Below are positions 16,072 to 22,766 of a stretch of 29,764 nt of DNA, one piece after another. The notes beneath the pieces are model-generated. The model ran no database searches. It saw only the letters and a program-made list of their open reading frames with translations, and had not been told where the DNA came from. Position numbers and translations under genes: made by a program. The stretch covers positions 1 through 29,764 of IMG/VR virus record IMGVR_UViG_3300042939_000785. The stretch is one strand, 5' to 3'. This DNA comes from a virus. The first letter of the stretch is position 1. Each line of letters begins with the position of its first letter.

Positions 16072-17364
16072 TCAGGCCGCTTTCGGCTTGCGGCGGCGCT
16101 GCAAGTCCTTGATCTGCAACACCTCGGCAGCCCGAGAACGTCTTGTGATTCTGGTCGTCGTGGGTTCGAGTCCCATCAGCCACCCCATCGGTTCCCCCTC
16201 GTAAGCGGCCTCTTCGGAGGCCGTTTTCGTTGGTGCCGCCGGCGCAGGTTGTGCCAGAGTTGTGCCACCGCCCGCCAGGTTGCCCGCCCACTGCGCCACG
16301 TGGCTGCGGCCCAAGTGGGCGTAGCGCTGCACCATGGCCAGGCTGGCCCAGCCGCCCAGCTCCTGCAGCACCGCCAGCGGCGTGCCCGATTGCACGTGCC
16401 AGCTGGCCCAGGTGTGGCGCAGGTCGTGGAAGCGCAGCCAGGGCAGCCCGGCGCGGGTGCAGGCCTTGCGCCACGCGGCGCTGCTGATCTTGCCGGTGGG
16501 CGTGTCGGCCACCTGGCGCGGCTTCTCTTCGGGCTTCTCGGCCGGCTCCCAGCGCGGCACCGGGAAGACCCAGCGCTTGTGCTGGCCGTGCTGCAGGGCC
16601 AGCACCTGCAGCGCCTCGGCATTGAGCGGCACGCTGTGGGCCTTGCCGGCCTTCATCTCGTCGCCCTCGAACCAGGCGACCGCGCGCGGCAGGTCGACTT
16701 GCTGCCACGTGAGCAGGCGGATGTTGGTTTCGCGCAGCCCGGTGGCCAGCGCGAAGGCCGCCATGGCGCGCAGGTGCGGCGGCAGCTCGGCCAGCAGATC
16801 GGCGGCCTGGTCGTGGGTGATCCAGGCCACGCGCTTGGCCGGCTCGGCGGCCTTGGTGATGGGCGGCACGGCGTCGAGCCACCCGCGCTTGTGGGCGTAG
16901 TGCAGCACGGCGCTGAGCTGGGCCATGTGCCGGTTGACGGTGGCGCCGCTGGTGGGCTTGGGTTCCGGCGGCGTGCGGCCAGCGGCCACAGCGCGCGCGA
17001 TCTCGCGGCGGTTGACGGCCTCAGCCTTGCGGGCCTTGCTGAGCTGGCGGATGACGGGATCGGTGATCTCGGCCAGCATGCGGCCGCGCAGGTGGGCGCT
17101 GAGCCAGCGCAGGACGCGCTTGATCTCTTCGATGCTGCGGCGGTGCTGGTGTTCCTCGAGCCAGGCCACGACGGCCTGGTCCCACGTCACCGCGGGGGCT
17201 TCGCCGAGCCGCCGGGCCCGCCAGAGATCGCGCGCAAGGGTGGCGGCGTATTCCGCCGCCGCGGCGCGGTCGCTGGTGCCAGTGCTGCGTCGAGCGCGCT
17301 GGCCTGCGATCTCGCCGAGGTCAACCCACCACGTGCCTCGTTGGCCGCGCTGATAGAGCCGCAT
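16072..17364 (-). CDS. int: Phage tyrosine-recombinase integrase
   Basis: The 430-residue protein starts with [16 protein letters not shown], the N-terminal beta domain typical of phage Int. A SAM-like core-binding region follows, and a catalytic domain shows R211 (TGLRETN), K at ~238-241, H313-x-x-R316 (FHDLRHTW), W339 in LGGW in place of the usual second His, and nucleophile Y348 (VQRYAHL). Residues 393-408 are encoded by the tRNA-His attP core (including [10 protein letters not shown]) and 409-430 by sequence beyond it, so the tail changes on integration. It is the last gene of the leftward unit, after the HTH gene. Confidence 0.93.
16143..16187 (+). other. attP core: 3' 45 nt of a tRNA-His gene
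   Basis: The segment starts with the anticodon loop TTGTGAT (GTG anticodon) and continues through the T arm GTGGG-TTCGAGT-CCCAT. It ends with the acceptor strand CAGCCAC, discriminator C and CCA. C at the discriminator position is peculiar to tRNA-His. No 5' half of a tRNA is present upstream, so this is an attachment core and not a gene. It lies between the lysis genes and int, within the int coding region, as expected for attP. Confidence 0.88.
16206..16227 (+). terminator. Rho-independent terminator beside attP core
   Basis: CGGCCTC, a TTCG tetraloop and GAGGCCG form a perfect 7-bp stem, followed by TTTT at 16224-16227. It would stop rightward transcription from the lysis genes. After integration it would lie just downstream of the restored tRNA-His gene, replacing the host terminator. 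Confidence 0.75.
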
Positions 17365-18658: not shown

Positions 18659-18660
18659 GG

Positions 18661-18707
18661 CTGGTCGGTGTTACGCCGCGGTTCCTGCGGTCGAATTGAC
18701 GTTAGGC
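18661..18707 (+). other. Integron attI site
   Basis: The sequence between the intI start and the first cassette contains GTTACGC at 18670-18676 and ends in GTTAGGC at 18701-18707. GTTAGGC is the canonical GTTRRRY core where cassettes insert, between G and TT. GTTACGCCGYGG-type boxes occur in known attI sites. The exact left limit is not defined. Confidence 0.8.
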
Positions 18708-18989
18708 AGCGCCAACAGCCGCAGCCGTGGCGTCGTTCATCGTCTTCTCCAGCGACTCGGCTTCGTCGGCCAGCTCGATCAGCCGCTGCGCCGTCTCGCG
18801 CAACGCTTTGTGCCCGGCCAGCACGCGGAAGCTGGAAACCTCGCGGTCGCGCGTCAACCCTTCAAGGCCGTAGCCGAACACGGGCTCACTGCAGATCATC
18901 ACCAACTCCACGCGGGCCTTTACCTTCGGCGGCGCGTCCAGGTCGGGCGCCAAGATCAGGTTGCTCGCGTGGCCTAGTAGCTCTTTCAT
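18702..18989 (-). CDS. Integron cassette 1 protein, unknown function
   Basis: The 95-residue ORF starts with ATG at 18989, preceded by AAAGGA with six bases spacing. Its TAA stop is formed by the core site itself (GCC TAA C at 18707-18701). The protein has LGHASNLILAPDLDAPPKVK, then a hydrophobic strand VELVMICSEPVFGYG, and a helical C-terminal half (ETAQRLIELADEAESLEKTM) that may form a coiled coil. It reads like a small soluble protein of phage accessory type. It runs toward intI, opposite to the usual cassette orientation. Confidence 0.75.
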   Translation of the reverse strand: MKELLGHASNLILAPDLDAPPKVKARVELVMICSEPVFGYGLEGLTRDREVSSFRVLAGHKALRETAQRLIELADEAESLEKTMNDATAAAVGAA

Positions 18990-19017
18990 GTCTGTCCTTT
19001 GTGCGCCACCAGGCGCT

Positions 19018-19076
19018 GCCTAACTACTCGCTCAAGTTGACCCGCCGCAGCGGGCAACTTAGCTCGAACGTTAGGC
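19018..19076 (+). repeat. attC1 recombination site
   Basis: R'' GCCTAAC (19018-19024) and R' GTTAGGC (19070-19076) bracket a 59-bp imperfect palindrome. The left arm has GCTCAAGTTG against GCTAAGTTG on the complement of the right arm. The extra C in the left arm is the extrahelical base that fixes orientation, and it matches the standard polarity for an array to the right of attI. Confidence 0.93.
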
Positions 19077-19313
19077 CCCAAGCGCCTCTCGCGCCAGCGC
19101 GCGCATGTAATCACGCTCGCCGTTGCTGCCGTAGGCTGCGCCGTAGCTCATGGGCTCGCCTGTGGGCCAAGTCTTGCCCGTAGGCGGAAACTCGCCGTGC
19201 CACTTCGCCACGCGCTCCAGTGCGCGGCGCATGCGCTCGTTTTCGCTGCGCAGCTCTGCAATCACAGCCACATCACAATCCCGCACCAAACTTGCTGTCA
19301 GTTGGTCATACAT
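19071..19313 (-). CDS. Integron cassette 2 protein, phage-type small protein
   Basis: The 80-residue ORF starts at 19313, preceded by GGAGGG five bases upstream, and its TAA stop lies in the attC1 R' core. The sequence contains a helical ELRSENERMRRALERVAKWH, then GEFPPTG and an ERDYMRALAREAL end. This pattern is familiar from small early-region phage proteins (Ea22-like or EaA-like), where the helix and WHGEFPxTG are combined. Function is unknown. The orientation is opposite to attC polarity. Confidence 0.75.
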   Translation of the reverse strand: MYDQLTASLVRDCDVAVIAELRSENERMRRALERVAKWHGEFPPTGKTWPTGEPMSYGAAYGSNGERDYMRALAREALGA

Positions 19314-19348
19314 CTTTGCCCTCCAAGTTGTTCACGCTTCGGAACCAG

Positions 19349-19409
19349 GCCTAACTACTCGCTCAAGGCCGACCCGCCTGCGGCGGTCGGCTTAGCTCGA
19401 ACGTTAGGC
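19349..19409 (+). repeat. attC2 recombination site
   Basis: R'' GCCTAAC (19349-19355) and R' GTTAGGC (19403-19409) enclose a 61-bp hairpin-forming site. The left arm has GCTCAAGGCCGAC and the right-arm complement GCTAAGCCGAC, with an extra C on the left arm as in attC1. It is nearly identical to attC1 in the outer arms. Confidence 0.93.
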
Positions 19410-19730
19410 CCCACGAAGTTGCGCCACAGCAAGCAGCACGCGGGCCTGTGCGATGTCGTTGCCGCTTACGGGCGGCTCGTTGGCAATGCGCTCCAGAATC
19501 TGCGCGCACCGCTCGCGGGTTGTCGCCATCGCGGCGGACCAGGCGCACCAAGCCAAGTCAACGTCCAGCTCGCGGTAGTTCCCGGGCCATGCGCTGTTTT
19601 CGCCGAAGCGCTCCACTTCCCGCTCGTAGGGCGGCGAGCTTATCCACGCCTCGAACGCCGCGCGGAGCCTAACTGGCGTTTCGAGCCGACCTTCGTCGGC
19701 AGGGGCGCTGTCGCGCTTCGGTTCATTCAT
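19404..19730 (-). CDS. Integron cassette 3 protein, unknown function
   Basis: The 108-residue ORF starts at 19730 with AGGAGG five bases upstream; the TAA stop lies in the attC2 core. The first ~21 residues are encoded within attC3. The rest is a Trp-rich alpha-helical domain (LRAAFEAWISSPPYEREVER, NYRELDVDLAWCAWSAAM, TRERCAQILERIANEPP). FEAWxxxxPxxxxxERF and WxAWSAA patterns occur in many small phage-associated proteins of unknown role. Direction is opposite to attC polarity. Confidence 0.75.
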   Translation of the reverse strand: MNEPKRDSAPADEGRLETPVRLRAAFEAWISSPPYEREVERFGENSAWPGNYRELDVDLAWCAWSAAMATTRERCAQILERIANEPPVSGNDIAQARVLLAVAQLRGA

Positions 19731-19765
19731 CTCGGCCTCCTTGTCGGCTCAAACTATCGTTCTAC
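19667..19765 (+). repeat. attC3 recombination site with non-canonical outer core
   Basis: R'' GCCTAAC is at 19667-19673, and the left arm GTTTCGAGCCGAC pairs with the right-arm complement GTTTGAGCCGAC, again with one extra C on the left. The R' position holds GTTCTAC (19759-19765), which keeps GTT but deviates from GTTRRRY. This R' belongs to the next cassette, whose own R'' is GTAGAAC, so the pair matches once cassette 4 is circular. Confidence 0.75.
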
Positions 19766-19768
19766 GGC

Positions 19769-20575
19769 TCACGCGGCAGCGCGGAGCGCATAGTCCTTTG
19801 TCACGGTTCCACCTCCGCGCCCTGCGGCAACGACGGTGGCATTCACCCAAACTCGGCGCCCATCTGTCAGCCGCCGAATGTGGCCGCGCCGCAGGTGTTC
19901 GCGGGGCGACCGGTGCGCGCCCCCGATGCCGCCAGCACCGCCAGCGCGGCCGGGAACATCGATGGTCAGCACGTGGTACGCATCGAACGGGAGCGCGGCC
20001 TTAATCTTCCTGCCAGCCTTCCGCGGGTCGCTCCTGGCCACGTGCACGTTCGAGCACGCGAGCGCATTCAGGAAGCACATGAAGACCTTCAGGTACAGGG
20101 GGTAGCAGTCAGGCCCGGCCTCCCATGGCGCCAGCGGCCGGAATCGCACGGTGGCTCGCCCGCTAGGGTCCGTTCGGTCCAGGTAGTCCTGCATCGGAAT
20201 GGCGCACTCCGGCAGCCATGTCCACACAGCATCGTGCGTAGGGCATCCAGCGCCAGAGAGGTGCACGAACTGGTCGCGCTCACGCGCGAAGACAATGCGC
20301 TTCGTCAGCAAGTCCGGGCGCTCTTCATCGTCCGCGTGCAAGAACTCCAAGGCCAAGAACTGGTGTGGCAGCCTCAGTGGCAGCGTGCCGTCAATGGCCC
20401 GCAGCTCGGGGTCATCCATCAGCAGGCCGCCATCCGGCAGCAGAAACTTCTGTGAAGCCGCGGCCAGGTCCATCGCGTGGTTCATGCGCGCCCGCTCTGT
20501 CGCATCCAGGCCGGGCACTTCCACCATGGCGGCAAACTGCTTCGTCAGGCTGCGGCAAAAATTCAGGTGTTCCAT
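19769..20575 (-). CDS. Integron cassette 4 protein, phage-related, unknown function
   Basis: The 268-residue ORF is taken from the ATG at 20575 with GGAG six bases upstream; an adjacent ATG lies at 20578. The N-terminal part is helical (MEHLNFCRSLTKQFAAMVEV). The C-terminal part contains SPREHLRRGHIRRL, then RRVWVNATVVAAGRGG and VTKDYAL. This is a combination I associate with phage and plasmid accessory proteins of unknown function. It is the largest cassette. The TGA stop lies 4 nt inside the cassette. The orientation is opposite to attC polarity. Confidence 0.8.
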   Translation of the reverse strand: MEHLNFCRSLTKQFAAMVEVPGLDATERARMNHAMDLAAASQKFLLPDGGLLMDDPELRAIDGTLPLRLPHQFLALEFLHADDEERPDLLTKRIVFARERDQFVHLSGAGCPTHDAVWTWLPECAIPMQDYLDRTDPSGRATVRFRPLAPWEAGPDCYPLYLKVFMCFLNALACSNVHVARSDPRKAGRKIKAALPFDAYHVLTIDVPGRAGGAGGIGGAHRSPREHLRRGHIRRLTDGRRVWVNATVVAAGRGGGTVTKDYALRAAA

Positions 20576-20590
20576 CATGGTCTCCAAGCC

Positions 20591-20650
20591 GTAGAACTGG
20601 TCGCTCAACCGGACCGCCTGACGGCGGCCCGGTTAGCTCCAACGTTAGGC
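20591..20650 (+). repeat. attC4 recombination site
   Basis: R'' is GTAGAAC (20591-20597) and R' GTTAGGC (20644-20650). Inner arms GCTCAACCGG and complement GCTAACCGG again show the extra C on the left arm. The 60-bp site closes cassette 4; its unusual R'' exactly complements GTTCTAC at the cassette's other end (19759-19765). Confidence 0.88.
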
Positions 20651-20651
20651 C

Positions 20652-20972
20652 TCAAAACCCGTCGTGCTCGGGCAGGTCTTCAAACTCGCGCTCGCTGAGC
20701 CACACGTCGCGCACCACGTAGCGCTCCCAATCGGGGTCTCCAGCGTTGCGTGCTTCCTCCACGTAGCAATCGCCCTCGCTCGGCTCCATCACGCAATGGC
20801 TGCCGTTCAGCGAAACCCGCACGTAGCGGGTGCGCGGCTCTCCGAATGCGTCGAACTTCAGGCCATCGGGTTGGCACAGTTCTGCACGCTCCGGCGCCAG
20901 GCCTAACCCTGCGCTCGAACCGACCCCAAGGGGCTGGGTTGCGCCGTCTGTGCTCGTGTGTTCAGCGGTCAT
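20652..20972 (-). CDS. Integron cassette 5 protein, unknown function
   Basis: The 106-residue ORF starts at 20972 with AGGAG five bases upstream; both site and start lie in the variable loop of attC5. The first ~24 residues are attC-encoded and Ser/Thr/Gly-rich. The remaining domain has beta-strands (RTRYVRVSLNGSHCVMEP, CYVEEARN) followed by an acidic end (YVVRDVWLSEREFEDLPEHD). The TGA stop immediately follows the core. No family is recognised. The orientation is opposite to attC polarity. Confidence 0.72.
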   Translation of the reverse strand: MTAEHTSTDGATQPLGVGSSAGLGLAPERAELCQPDGLKFDAFGEPRTRYVRVSLNGSHCVMEPSEGDCYVEEARNAGDPDWERYVVRDVWLSEREFEDLPEHDGF

Positions 20973-21020
20973 CGTTGCTCCTGTGCAGCCCCTTGGGGCG
21001 GTTCAGCTTCAGCGTTAGGC
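20901..21020 (+). repeat. attC5 recombination site, last in array
   Basis: R'' GCCTAAC (20901-20907) and R' GTTAGGC (21014-21020) flank a long site of 120 bp. Left arm GCTCGAACCG pairs with GCTGAACCG (extra C on the left), followed by a 13-bp perfect continuation CCCCAAGGGGCTG. It abuts the stop codon of the first phage early gene to the right. Confidence 0.93.
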
Positions 21021-21021
21021 C

Positions 21022-21231
21022 TCACAGCAGCGCCTCATCATCCCGCGGCACCTGCCCGTGCAGATACCGCGACGGCATCCTCTCGCAGATCCTGCGCGCT
21101 GCCACCTCGGCCGGCGCCGGAAACGGCCAGCCCGGCACGATCGGCGCCACGCGCAGCAGGCCGCCGCGGCTGCCGTCGAGCTCGATGGCTTCGCGGCCGT
21201 CGGGCAGTTTCCAGCGGTCGCCTGCGCTCAT
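21022..21231 (-). CDS. Small phage early-operon protein, last before the integron
   Basis: The start at 21231 overlaps the methyltransferase stop in ATGA, giving 69 residues (MSAGDRWKLPDGREAIELDG, WPFPAPAEVAARRICERMPS). The beta-rich N-terminus and RRICERMPSRYLHG end resemble small phage proteins located beside methyltransferases. The TGA stop is adjacent to the last attC core, in the same TGAGGCCTAAC context as cassette 5. It may be the native operon end, or a cassette that lost its outer attC. Confidence 0.7.
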   Translation of the reverse strand: MSAGDRWKLPDGREAIELDGSRGGLLRVAPIVPGWPFPAPAEVAARRICERMPSRYLHGQVPRDDEALL

Positions 21232-22766
21232 GCTGCAGCCTTCAGCGCCACGCGCTCGACGAAGTTTGCACGCACGATGGCCGCAGCCACCGGCGGGCAG
21301 ACGCTGTTGCCGCACATGCGCACCTGGGCGGCCTTGCTCAACTGGCGGCCGTCGGCGCCGCGGTCGATCGCGTAGCTCTCCGGGAAGCCCTGCGCGCGGT
21401 ACAGCTCGCGCGGCTGCAGCATGCGCATGCCGATGTCGGCGATCACGTAGTCCTGGCCGGCCACGGTGACGAGGCCGAAGCGGTCGTGCGTGGTGGCCGT
21501 GGGCAGCGGCTTCGTGAGCTGGGCCGCCTGGTCGGTGCCGTAGTAGGCCAGCAGAAGCGCGCGCACTTCGGCGTGGTGCATGCCCTGCGCGCTGACCGTT
21601 CCCAGCGGCTCGCCGCTGTCGGCGCTGTTGCTGGTGCCGCGCAGCTTGGCGAGGTGTGACGTCACCAGCGAGTGGTGGTCGACGCTGGTGACGGTGCCGA
21701 TCGCATCGCTCAGCTTCGAGCCCACCACGCCGCCGTAGTGCTTGGCCAGGAACGCCGCCACCAGGCCGTGCTTCTGGCCGCTCACTAGGGTTCCGATGGG
21801 CTTGTCCAGGCCCGGCACGCGGGGCGCCTGGCCTTCGCGCTCGCCGTAGCCCGTCTGCACAAGCGTCGGCACCGCCAGGCAGTGCTCGGCCTTGCTGGTG
21901 ATGGTCGACAGCGGCTCGGTGGCCGGCTTGTCCTTGCCGGCGTCACCGTGCCCGGTGTGGCCGATGCGCACGATGAACGGCTCGGCGGCCTCAAGCACGA
22001 AGCGCTTGATGCCGTGGGCGATGCGGCGCAGCGTGGCGTCGGCCAGCGGGCGCTGGCGCTCGAAGATGCTCGGGCAGTCTAGGCTCCAGTCGATGCAGTC
22101 GGCCGCGGTGCGCCAGGGCTTCAGACCATTTCCGTGACGCCGCGAAAATGGTGCTCCGTGCGTGGGCTCGGGCCATGCGATCGGCTGGCCGTCGCGCCGC
22201 GCCACCAGAAACAGGCGCTTGCGGATGGTGGGCGCACCGAAGTCGCACGCGCGCAGCTCGCGCCACTCGACGGCGTACCCCAGGTTGCGCAGCTGCGCCA
22301 CCCAGCGCTGGAAGGTGAGGCCCTTGCGGTCAGGGCAGGGCCGGCCGTCGTCGCCGAGCGGGCCCCAGGTCTGGAACTCTTCGACGTTCTCCAGGCAGAT
22401 GATGCGCGGCTGCACTTCCTTGGCCCAGCGCACCACCACCCAGGCCAGGCCGCGAATCTTCTTCGACACGGGCTTGCCGCCCTTGGCCTTGCTGAAGTGC
22501 TTGCAGTCGGGCGACGCCCACAGCAGGCCCACGGGCCGGCCCTCGGTGACGGTGTGCGGGTCGACCTCGAAGACGTCGCTGACAAAGTGCCGCGTCTGCG
22601 GGTGGTTCGCCTGGTGCAGGCTCACCGCCTCGGGGTCGTGATTGATGGCGATGTCGACGTGCCGGCCGGTGGCCAACTCGATGCCGGTGCTGGCACCGCC
22701 GCCGCCGGCGAACAGGTCGACCATGAGCTCGTCGGCCAGCGGCAGGATGAACTGGCGGGCGATCAT
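21228..22766 (-). CDS. Phage DNA cytosine C5-methyltransferase
   Basis: The 512-residue protein has the ordered C5-MTase motifs: motif I DLFAGGGGASTG (17-28), motif IV SPDCKHFS with catalytic C88 (PDC in place of PPC, a phage variant), motif VI ENV (126-128), motif VIII RKRLFLVA (~182-189), and motif X near GNSVCPPVAAAIV. The region ~285-430 contains at least four repeats of the form KP(I/L)xTxxxxxxxLV, a modular target-recognition-like region. It transfers methyl from SAM to cytosine, probably to protect phage DNA from host restriction. It is coupled to both neighbours by ATGA. Confidence 0.92.
   Translation of the reverse strand: MIARQFILPLADELMVDLFAGGGGASTGIELATGRHVDIAINHDPEAVSLHQANHPQTRHFVSDVFEVDPHTVTEGRPVGLLWASPDCKHFSKAKGGKPVSKKIRGLAWVVVRWAKEVQPRIICLENVEEFQTWGPLGDDGRPCPDRKGLTFQRWVAQLRNLGYAVEWRELRACDFGAPTIRKRLFLVARRDGQPIAWPEPTHGAPFSRRHGNGLKPWRTAADCIDWSLDCPSIFERQRPLADATLRRIAHGIKRFVLEAAEPFIVRIGHTGHGDAGKDKPATEPLSTITSKAEHCLAVPTLVQTGYGEREGQAPRVPGLDKPIGTLVSGQKHGLVAAFLAKHYGGVVGSKLSDAIGTVTSVDHHSLVTSHLAKLRGTSNSADSGEPLGTVSAQGMHHAEVRALLLAYYGTDQAAQLTKPLPTATTHDRFGLVTVAGQDYVIADIGMRMLQPRELYRAQGFPESYAIDRGADGRQLSKAAQVRMCGNSVCPPVAAAIVRANFVERVALKAAA

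Follow-up and report, generated by a model that had tools for sequence, protein, structure and literature searches.

An 885-bp gene cassette with its own core pair in a phage-borne integron with cassette genes oriented opposite to attC

Cassette 4 of the array described here is very probably a mobile 885-bp cassette that carries its own core pair, GTTCTAC and GTAGAAC, and that entered a phage-borne integron by an IntI-type crossover at G/TT. The reversed genes of the array would most likely be read from the leftward operon of the phage. The core pair itself is standard. The larger find is the setting, a phage integron family in which arrays turn over and the cassette genes are reversed. Comparisons between related sequences demonstrate the cassette boundaries, the rule that the core moves with its cassette, exchange between phages and the reversed coding strand.

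The window, meaning the whole 29,764-nt stretch that was analysed, is an IMG/VR virus record in which head, tail and integration genes surround the array, as in a temperate tailed phage. Around the array are matches to portal, tape measure and major head proteins, to distal tail and tail fibre J proteins, and to an integrase. The integron is located with the phage integrase gene on one side and leftward phage genes on the other (Table 1). intI and the cassette genes share this leftward direction, as does a cytosine methyltransferase gene (21228-22766) that abuts the array. DNA methyltransferase genes are found as cassettes in other arrays (L009 cassette 2 and L025 cassettes 2-3). Beside the phage integrase gene, positions 16130-16186 resemble the 3' end of a tRNA gene and are likely attP; ARAGORN found no complete tRNA. 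An Rfam scan gave no match.

Table 1. Features of the integron and its surroundings, in window coordinates.
Feature	Position	Strand	Basis
Phage tyrosine integrase gene	16072-17364	-	phrog_1 match, 3.4e-62
intI, integron integrase, 369 aa	17549-18658	-	TIGR02249, 428.2 bits (cut-off 265); GTGMRL and HTLRH motifs
attI region ending in core GTTAGGC (18701-18707)	18660-18707	+	family-conserved motif, homology breakpoint
Cassette 1 body	18702-19018	-	ORF 18702-18989 (-), 95 aa
attC1, GCCTAAC / GTTAGGC	19018-19076	+	attC anatomy; fold z -4.8
Cassette 2 ORF, 80 aa	19071-19313	-	ORF, coding-strand scoring
attC2, GCCTAAC / GTTAGGC	19349-19409	+	attC anatomy, folding
Cassette 3 ORF, 108 aa	19404-19730	-	relatives in L074-L077, third-position substitutions
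attC3, hybrid: R'' GCCTAAC from cassette 3, R' GTTCTAC after G from cassette 4	19667-19765	+	homologs
Cassette 4 left core GTTCTAC	19759-19765	+	R' of attC3
Cassette 4, 885 bp, G/TT to G/TT	19760-20644	.	core pair, homolog comparison, folding
Gene of cassette 4 (269-aa phage protein, no named family)	19769-20578	-	relatives L001-L003
Cassette 4 R'' GTAGAAC	20591-20597	+	R'' of attC4
attC4, GTAGAAC / GTTAGGC; part after G from cassette 5	20591-20650	+	anatomy, folding
Cassette 5 ORF, 106 aa	20652-20972	-	relatives in L080 and L081, 80-87% identical
attC5, final site of the array	20901-21020	+	anatomy, folding; L014 homology restarts at 21013

The intI gene is intact, and its product has the GTGMRL and HTLRH motifs as well as a third motif of 11 residues. 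Relatives of the window IntI were found at 27 loci in IMG/VR and at 42 in assemblies of bacterial genomes. The element that hosts the integron is a temperate phage, and the 27 IMG/VR loci, many of which are contig ends, make up the integron family. A phage tyrosine integrase gene adjoins intI in L004, L007-L009, L014, L018, L028 and L029 as well. The supported clade that holds the window in the IntI tree consists of 18 viral and 4 Burkholderiales genome rows; it may not be exclusive to phages, as the bacterial integrases in the tree are those found by search as close relatives. The site adjoining the start of intI is a putative attI. Its motif, GTTACGCCGCGG...GCGGTCGAATT...GTT, is kept in most of the family, and in many related phages homology to the window stops at 18703-18707.

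Right of the attI core at 18701, five attC sites, all forward, close five cassettes. The sites were found with a home-made, anatomy-based finder that looks for R'', a 5-nt spacer, L'' with an extrahelical base, L', a 5- to 6-nt spacer and R', with a small bonus for same-site matches and for common cores. This full anatomy is present at each of the five sites. For attC1, attC4 and attC5, none of 200 shuffles folds as well as the bottom strand; for attC2, 2 of the 200 do as well or better, and for attC3, 5 do. The Shine-Dalgarno sequence and ATG of cassettes 3 and 5 fall within the loops of attC3 and attC5, respectively. Searches of cassettes 1-5 against Pfam, NCBIfam and PHROGs gave no significant match.

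The initial annotation placed GTTCTAC at the start of cassette 4 and GTAGAAC at its attC end, and the two are exact reverse complements at those positions. The predicted 885-bp unit is likewise confirmed, running from the first T of TTCTAC to the G of the next core, and its left core departs from the GTTRRRY / RYYYAAC consensus by a C in place of R. Both attC3 and attC4 have a 5-nt R''-L'' spacer, an L'-R' spacer of 5 or 6 nt and an extrahelical base in L''. With the GTT/AAC part fixed, the chance that the four free bases match in one cassette is ~1/256. Folding agrees with the pairing. With its own core, the attC4 bottom strand pairs end to end (-22.4 kcal/mol), whereas with the core of the neighbour the four outer pairs are gone (-18.3 kcal/mol). 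For attC3, the energies are -20.0 kcal/mol with the core of its own cassette and -16.9 kcal/mol otherwise, and the outer boxes are fully paired only with the former.

Homologs of the flanking cassettes locate the junctions. Cassette 3, whose relatives in L074-L077 are 78-96% identical, is found in L074 and L077 (92%) and in L076 (81%). Over the 92 nt preceding the core, attC3 of L074 and L077 differs from that of the window by one base; the L076 version has diverged. After GTT, the window continues with CTACGG, L074 and L077 with ATGCAG, and L076 with AGGCTC, so the homologous sites end in GTTATGC (L074/L077) and GTTAGGC (L076). Because the homologs agree up to GTT and then diverge, CTAC belongs to cassette 4. 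The proposal that attC3 is a hybrid junction is thus borne out, the homologous sites switching sequence exactly at GTT. On the other side, homologs of cassette 5 occur in L080 and L081 without a preceding cassette 4, and the L081 homology starts at the core. In L075 (4040-4337), the cassette 3 body is 97% identical, and homology ends at R'' (window 19673) and is followed by a different attC, which looks as though the cassette 3 gene and its attC had reassorted.

The initial annotation had taken the core pair as proof that cassette 4 is a unit. That it is a unit is borne out by the attC3 and cassette 5 comparisons, but "proves" is too strong a word for excision, which is a prediction. The predicted excision scar is ...GGCTCAAACTATCG joined to TTAGGCCTCAAAACC, and the predicted circle junction is ...GGTTAGCTCCAACG joined to TTCTACGGCTCACG. 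The suggested search for GTTCTAC/GTAGAAC cassettes in other integrons found none in IMG/VR under the patterns tried; nor did these return another copy of cassette 4 or a match to the R'' form GTAGAAC paired with GTTAGGC. The single match to the R' form GTTCTAC (L073) was taken as chance, as the finder did not confirm an attC there.

That a core travels along with its cassette is textbook knowledge and holds for every cassette. It is also standard that the end of each attC derives from the downstream cassette, with crossover between G and TT (PMC3518468). The related phage integrons follow this rule. Among 41 cassettes lying between two detected sites, the left core equals the cassette's own R'' at 4 of 4 free bases in 37; when R'' was shuffled among cassettes, the mean was 7.0 and the maximum 15 in 20,000 trials. 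Within single attC sites, complete agreement of R'' and R' is limited to 14 of 65, and the same-site bonus of the finder biases against the own-R'' result. Some of the four cassettes that fall short probably reflect missed sites. GTTRRRY is broken in 18 of the 41 cassettes, and 17 of these are still self-complementary. Even GTTR is broken in six (one in the window, two in L009 and one each in L014, L018 and L034), all of which match at 4 of 4 bases. The clearest case is L009, whose cores GTTAGGG, GTTAGCC, GTTCGGC, GTTATGC, GTTAGCC and GTTCGGC are each the exact complement of the sequence at their own cassette end. In L018, the neighbouring cassettes 1 and 2 share one best ORF, probably a duplication. 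The GTTCTAC/GTAGAAC pair is ordinary cassette behaviour and no exception. The earlier suggestion that the integrase tolerates a divergent core here holds insofar as divergent cores are common in the family, a pattern from which tolerance may be inferred; it fails insofar as it was thought special to cassette 4.

Judging from their breakpoints, cassettes and whole arrays are exchanged among related phages as units, at the G/TT crossover. Compared with the window, L014 has 96.8% identity on the left flank, which ends at 18705, and 95.8% on the right flank, which starts at 21013. The 3.4-kb array between the flanks (L014 4551-7955 versus window 18705-21013) is unrelated, and the two breakpoints fall on the attI core and the final R'. 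The last core of L014 is GTCAGGC, a broken GTT. L016 and L017 show 100% identity across both the 1,060 bp of intI and attI and a 580-bp cassette, whose core is GTTAGCC in both; L017 has one additional cassette at attI. Recurring cassettes at other positions include one shared by L008, L009 and L017 (88-93%) and one shared by L004 and L032 (94%).

Cassette 4 would have joined the array between cassettes 3 and 5, or cassettes 3 and 5 would have come to flank it. An IntI-type crossover at G/TT would then give attC3 an R' that comes from cassette 4 after the G, and attC4 an end that comes from cassette 5. The IntI of the window phage would catalyse the exchange, with a single-stranded bottom-strand attC as the presumed substrate.

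It is hardly credible that the two 7-mers match by chance and that cassette 4 is a phage gene lying between degenerate repeats. GTTCTAC occurs five times in the window versus 0.36 expected, and since three of these occurrences are at unrelated positions (11189, 15576 and 28178), the presence of the 7-mer alone is not evidence; relatives of cassette 4 also occur outside cassettes, in L001-L003. Against this, the 7-mers coincide exactly with the R' of one structurally sound attC site and the R'' of another, and the own-R'' rule together with the switch of the attC3 homologs at GTT refutes a chance match for practical purposes.

Two other readings accept past movement or an integron, and both are improbable, the second more so. 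The array could be a frozen relic, in which cassettes once moved and the integron is now silent. This reading draws on L028 (5369-5512) and L029 (8001-8144), where intI is cut to its last 48 residues and attI-like sequence is retained, and in L085 (1-1340), a phage 97% identical to the window in which the phage integrase has no neighbouring intI in the stretch examined and an attC cassette array is present. The window intI, however, is intact with all motifs present, L014 combines a 99% identical IntI with a wholly different array, and the only difference between L016 and L017 is a single cassette at attI. These array differences point to recent activity in the family and make a relic unlikely. 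It is less probable still that part of a bacterial chromosomal integron was caught in a prophage here, as has been reported for Vibrio phage p16 (PMC9892861). The layout of intI, attI and phage integrase repeats in several related phages, IntI falls in the mixed viral and Burkholderiales clade described above, and the cassette genes run opposite to attC, unlike those of the annotated Shewanella phage integron.

The reversal of the genes, which like the phage host goes unmentioned in the initial annotation, extends across the family. Scored by the codon use, start codon and ribosome site of their ORFs, with a codon model trained on the window phage, 43 cassettes are coded on the minus strand (against attC), 5 on the plus strand, and 12 are unclear. 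The annotated Shewanella and Vibrio phage integrons served as controls; Holophagaceae integrons were set aside as a control, the codon model being derived from the window phage. Differences between homologs are mostly at third positions of the minus frame in cassettes 3, 4 and 5, and the same holds for two cassettes from other arrays. Relative to attI, the attC sites are oriented normally, and the genes alone lie on the opposite strand, pointing to intI (18702-20972); insertion of cassettes upside down via the top strand was rejected on these grounds. Genes running in the attC direction, away from intI, are typical of integrons and are not required for membership. Because the genes point to intI and against attC, the phage leftward operon, not a Pc promoter in intI, would most likely drive their expression.

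The cassette 4 protein has relatives in three viral contigs (L001-L003, 45-56% identity), with no convincing attC nearby, and had no match among named phage records. Its predicted structure (mean pLDDT 51) was too poor for a structure search. In L002 (3240-4264), the cassette 4 homolog is followed by a weak cassette 3 homolog (36% over 61 aa) in a plain phage operon, the same gene order as in the window array. The relatives lacking a convincing attC and the L002 gene order hint that cassette genes may derive from phage operons.

Phage integrons have been reported before, 3 complete ones among 10,705 genomes (PMC9892861). Qi et al. 2023 described those of Vibrio phage p16, Shewanella phage M16-3 and P1 L-II, as well as CALINs in virulent phages, and interpreted the p16 array as a subset of its host chromosomal integron (PMC9892861). 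As in these cases, intI, attC and cassettes lie within a phage genome. Unlike them, the window platform recurs in related phages, arrays turn over and genes are reversed; in the M16-3 integron, the cassette genes as annotated point away from intI, which is the usual layout. With classical integrons, the window shares a TIGR02249 intI, an attI core, attC sites with inverted cores, spacers and an extrahelical base, and the G/TT crossover. It differs in that the genes run against attC, a Pc in intI would miss them, and start codons can sit inside attC. In inverted-integrase integrons of Spirochaetota, the intI gene itself is turned around. Such integrons, whose occurrence in that phylum is mentioned in PMC9668308, likewise have intI and cassette genes in one direction, whereas in the window the intI/attI layout is usual and it is the genes that face the opposite way to their own attC. 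The symE gene of Xanthomonas integrons also lies opposite to the Pc direction, but it is one recurrent reversed cassette (PMC12444791), whereas nearly all scored cassettes of the phage family are reversed. The virus Rctr41k (KX853513, L082; 4680-9434) has an integron-integrase-like xerD, attC-like sites beyond the 3' end of that gene and genes all in one direction, and possibly carries another unusual phage integron. A literature search, which covered non-subscription sources, found no paper on a phage integron family with reversed cassette genes, and such genes have hardly been described in phage integrons so far.

Both within a single array and between phages, the core pair of cassette 4 is a clean natural proof that the core moves with the cassette, and it fixes the cassette boundaries to a single base. 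These phage integron loci also make the origin of gene-reversed cassettes testable. There is about an even chance that, in a lineage of temperate phages of Burkholderiales, a resident integron serves as a library of small, exchangeable phage genes, including DNA methyltransferases, which are reversed relative to attC for expression from the leftward operon and form a pool separate from that of bacterial integrons. Bacterial integrons have recently been reported to store anti-phage defences (works cited in PMC12444791). The phage library would perhaps be a counterpart to these, and a phage integron that shuffles accessory genes would represent the opposite side of the contest between bacteria and phages.
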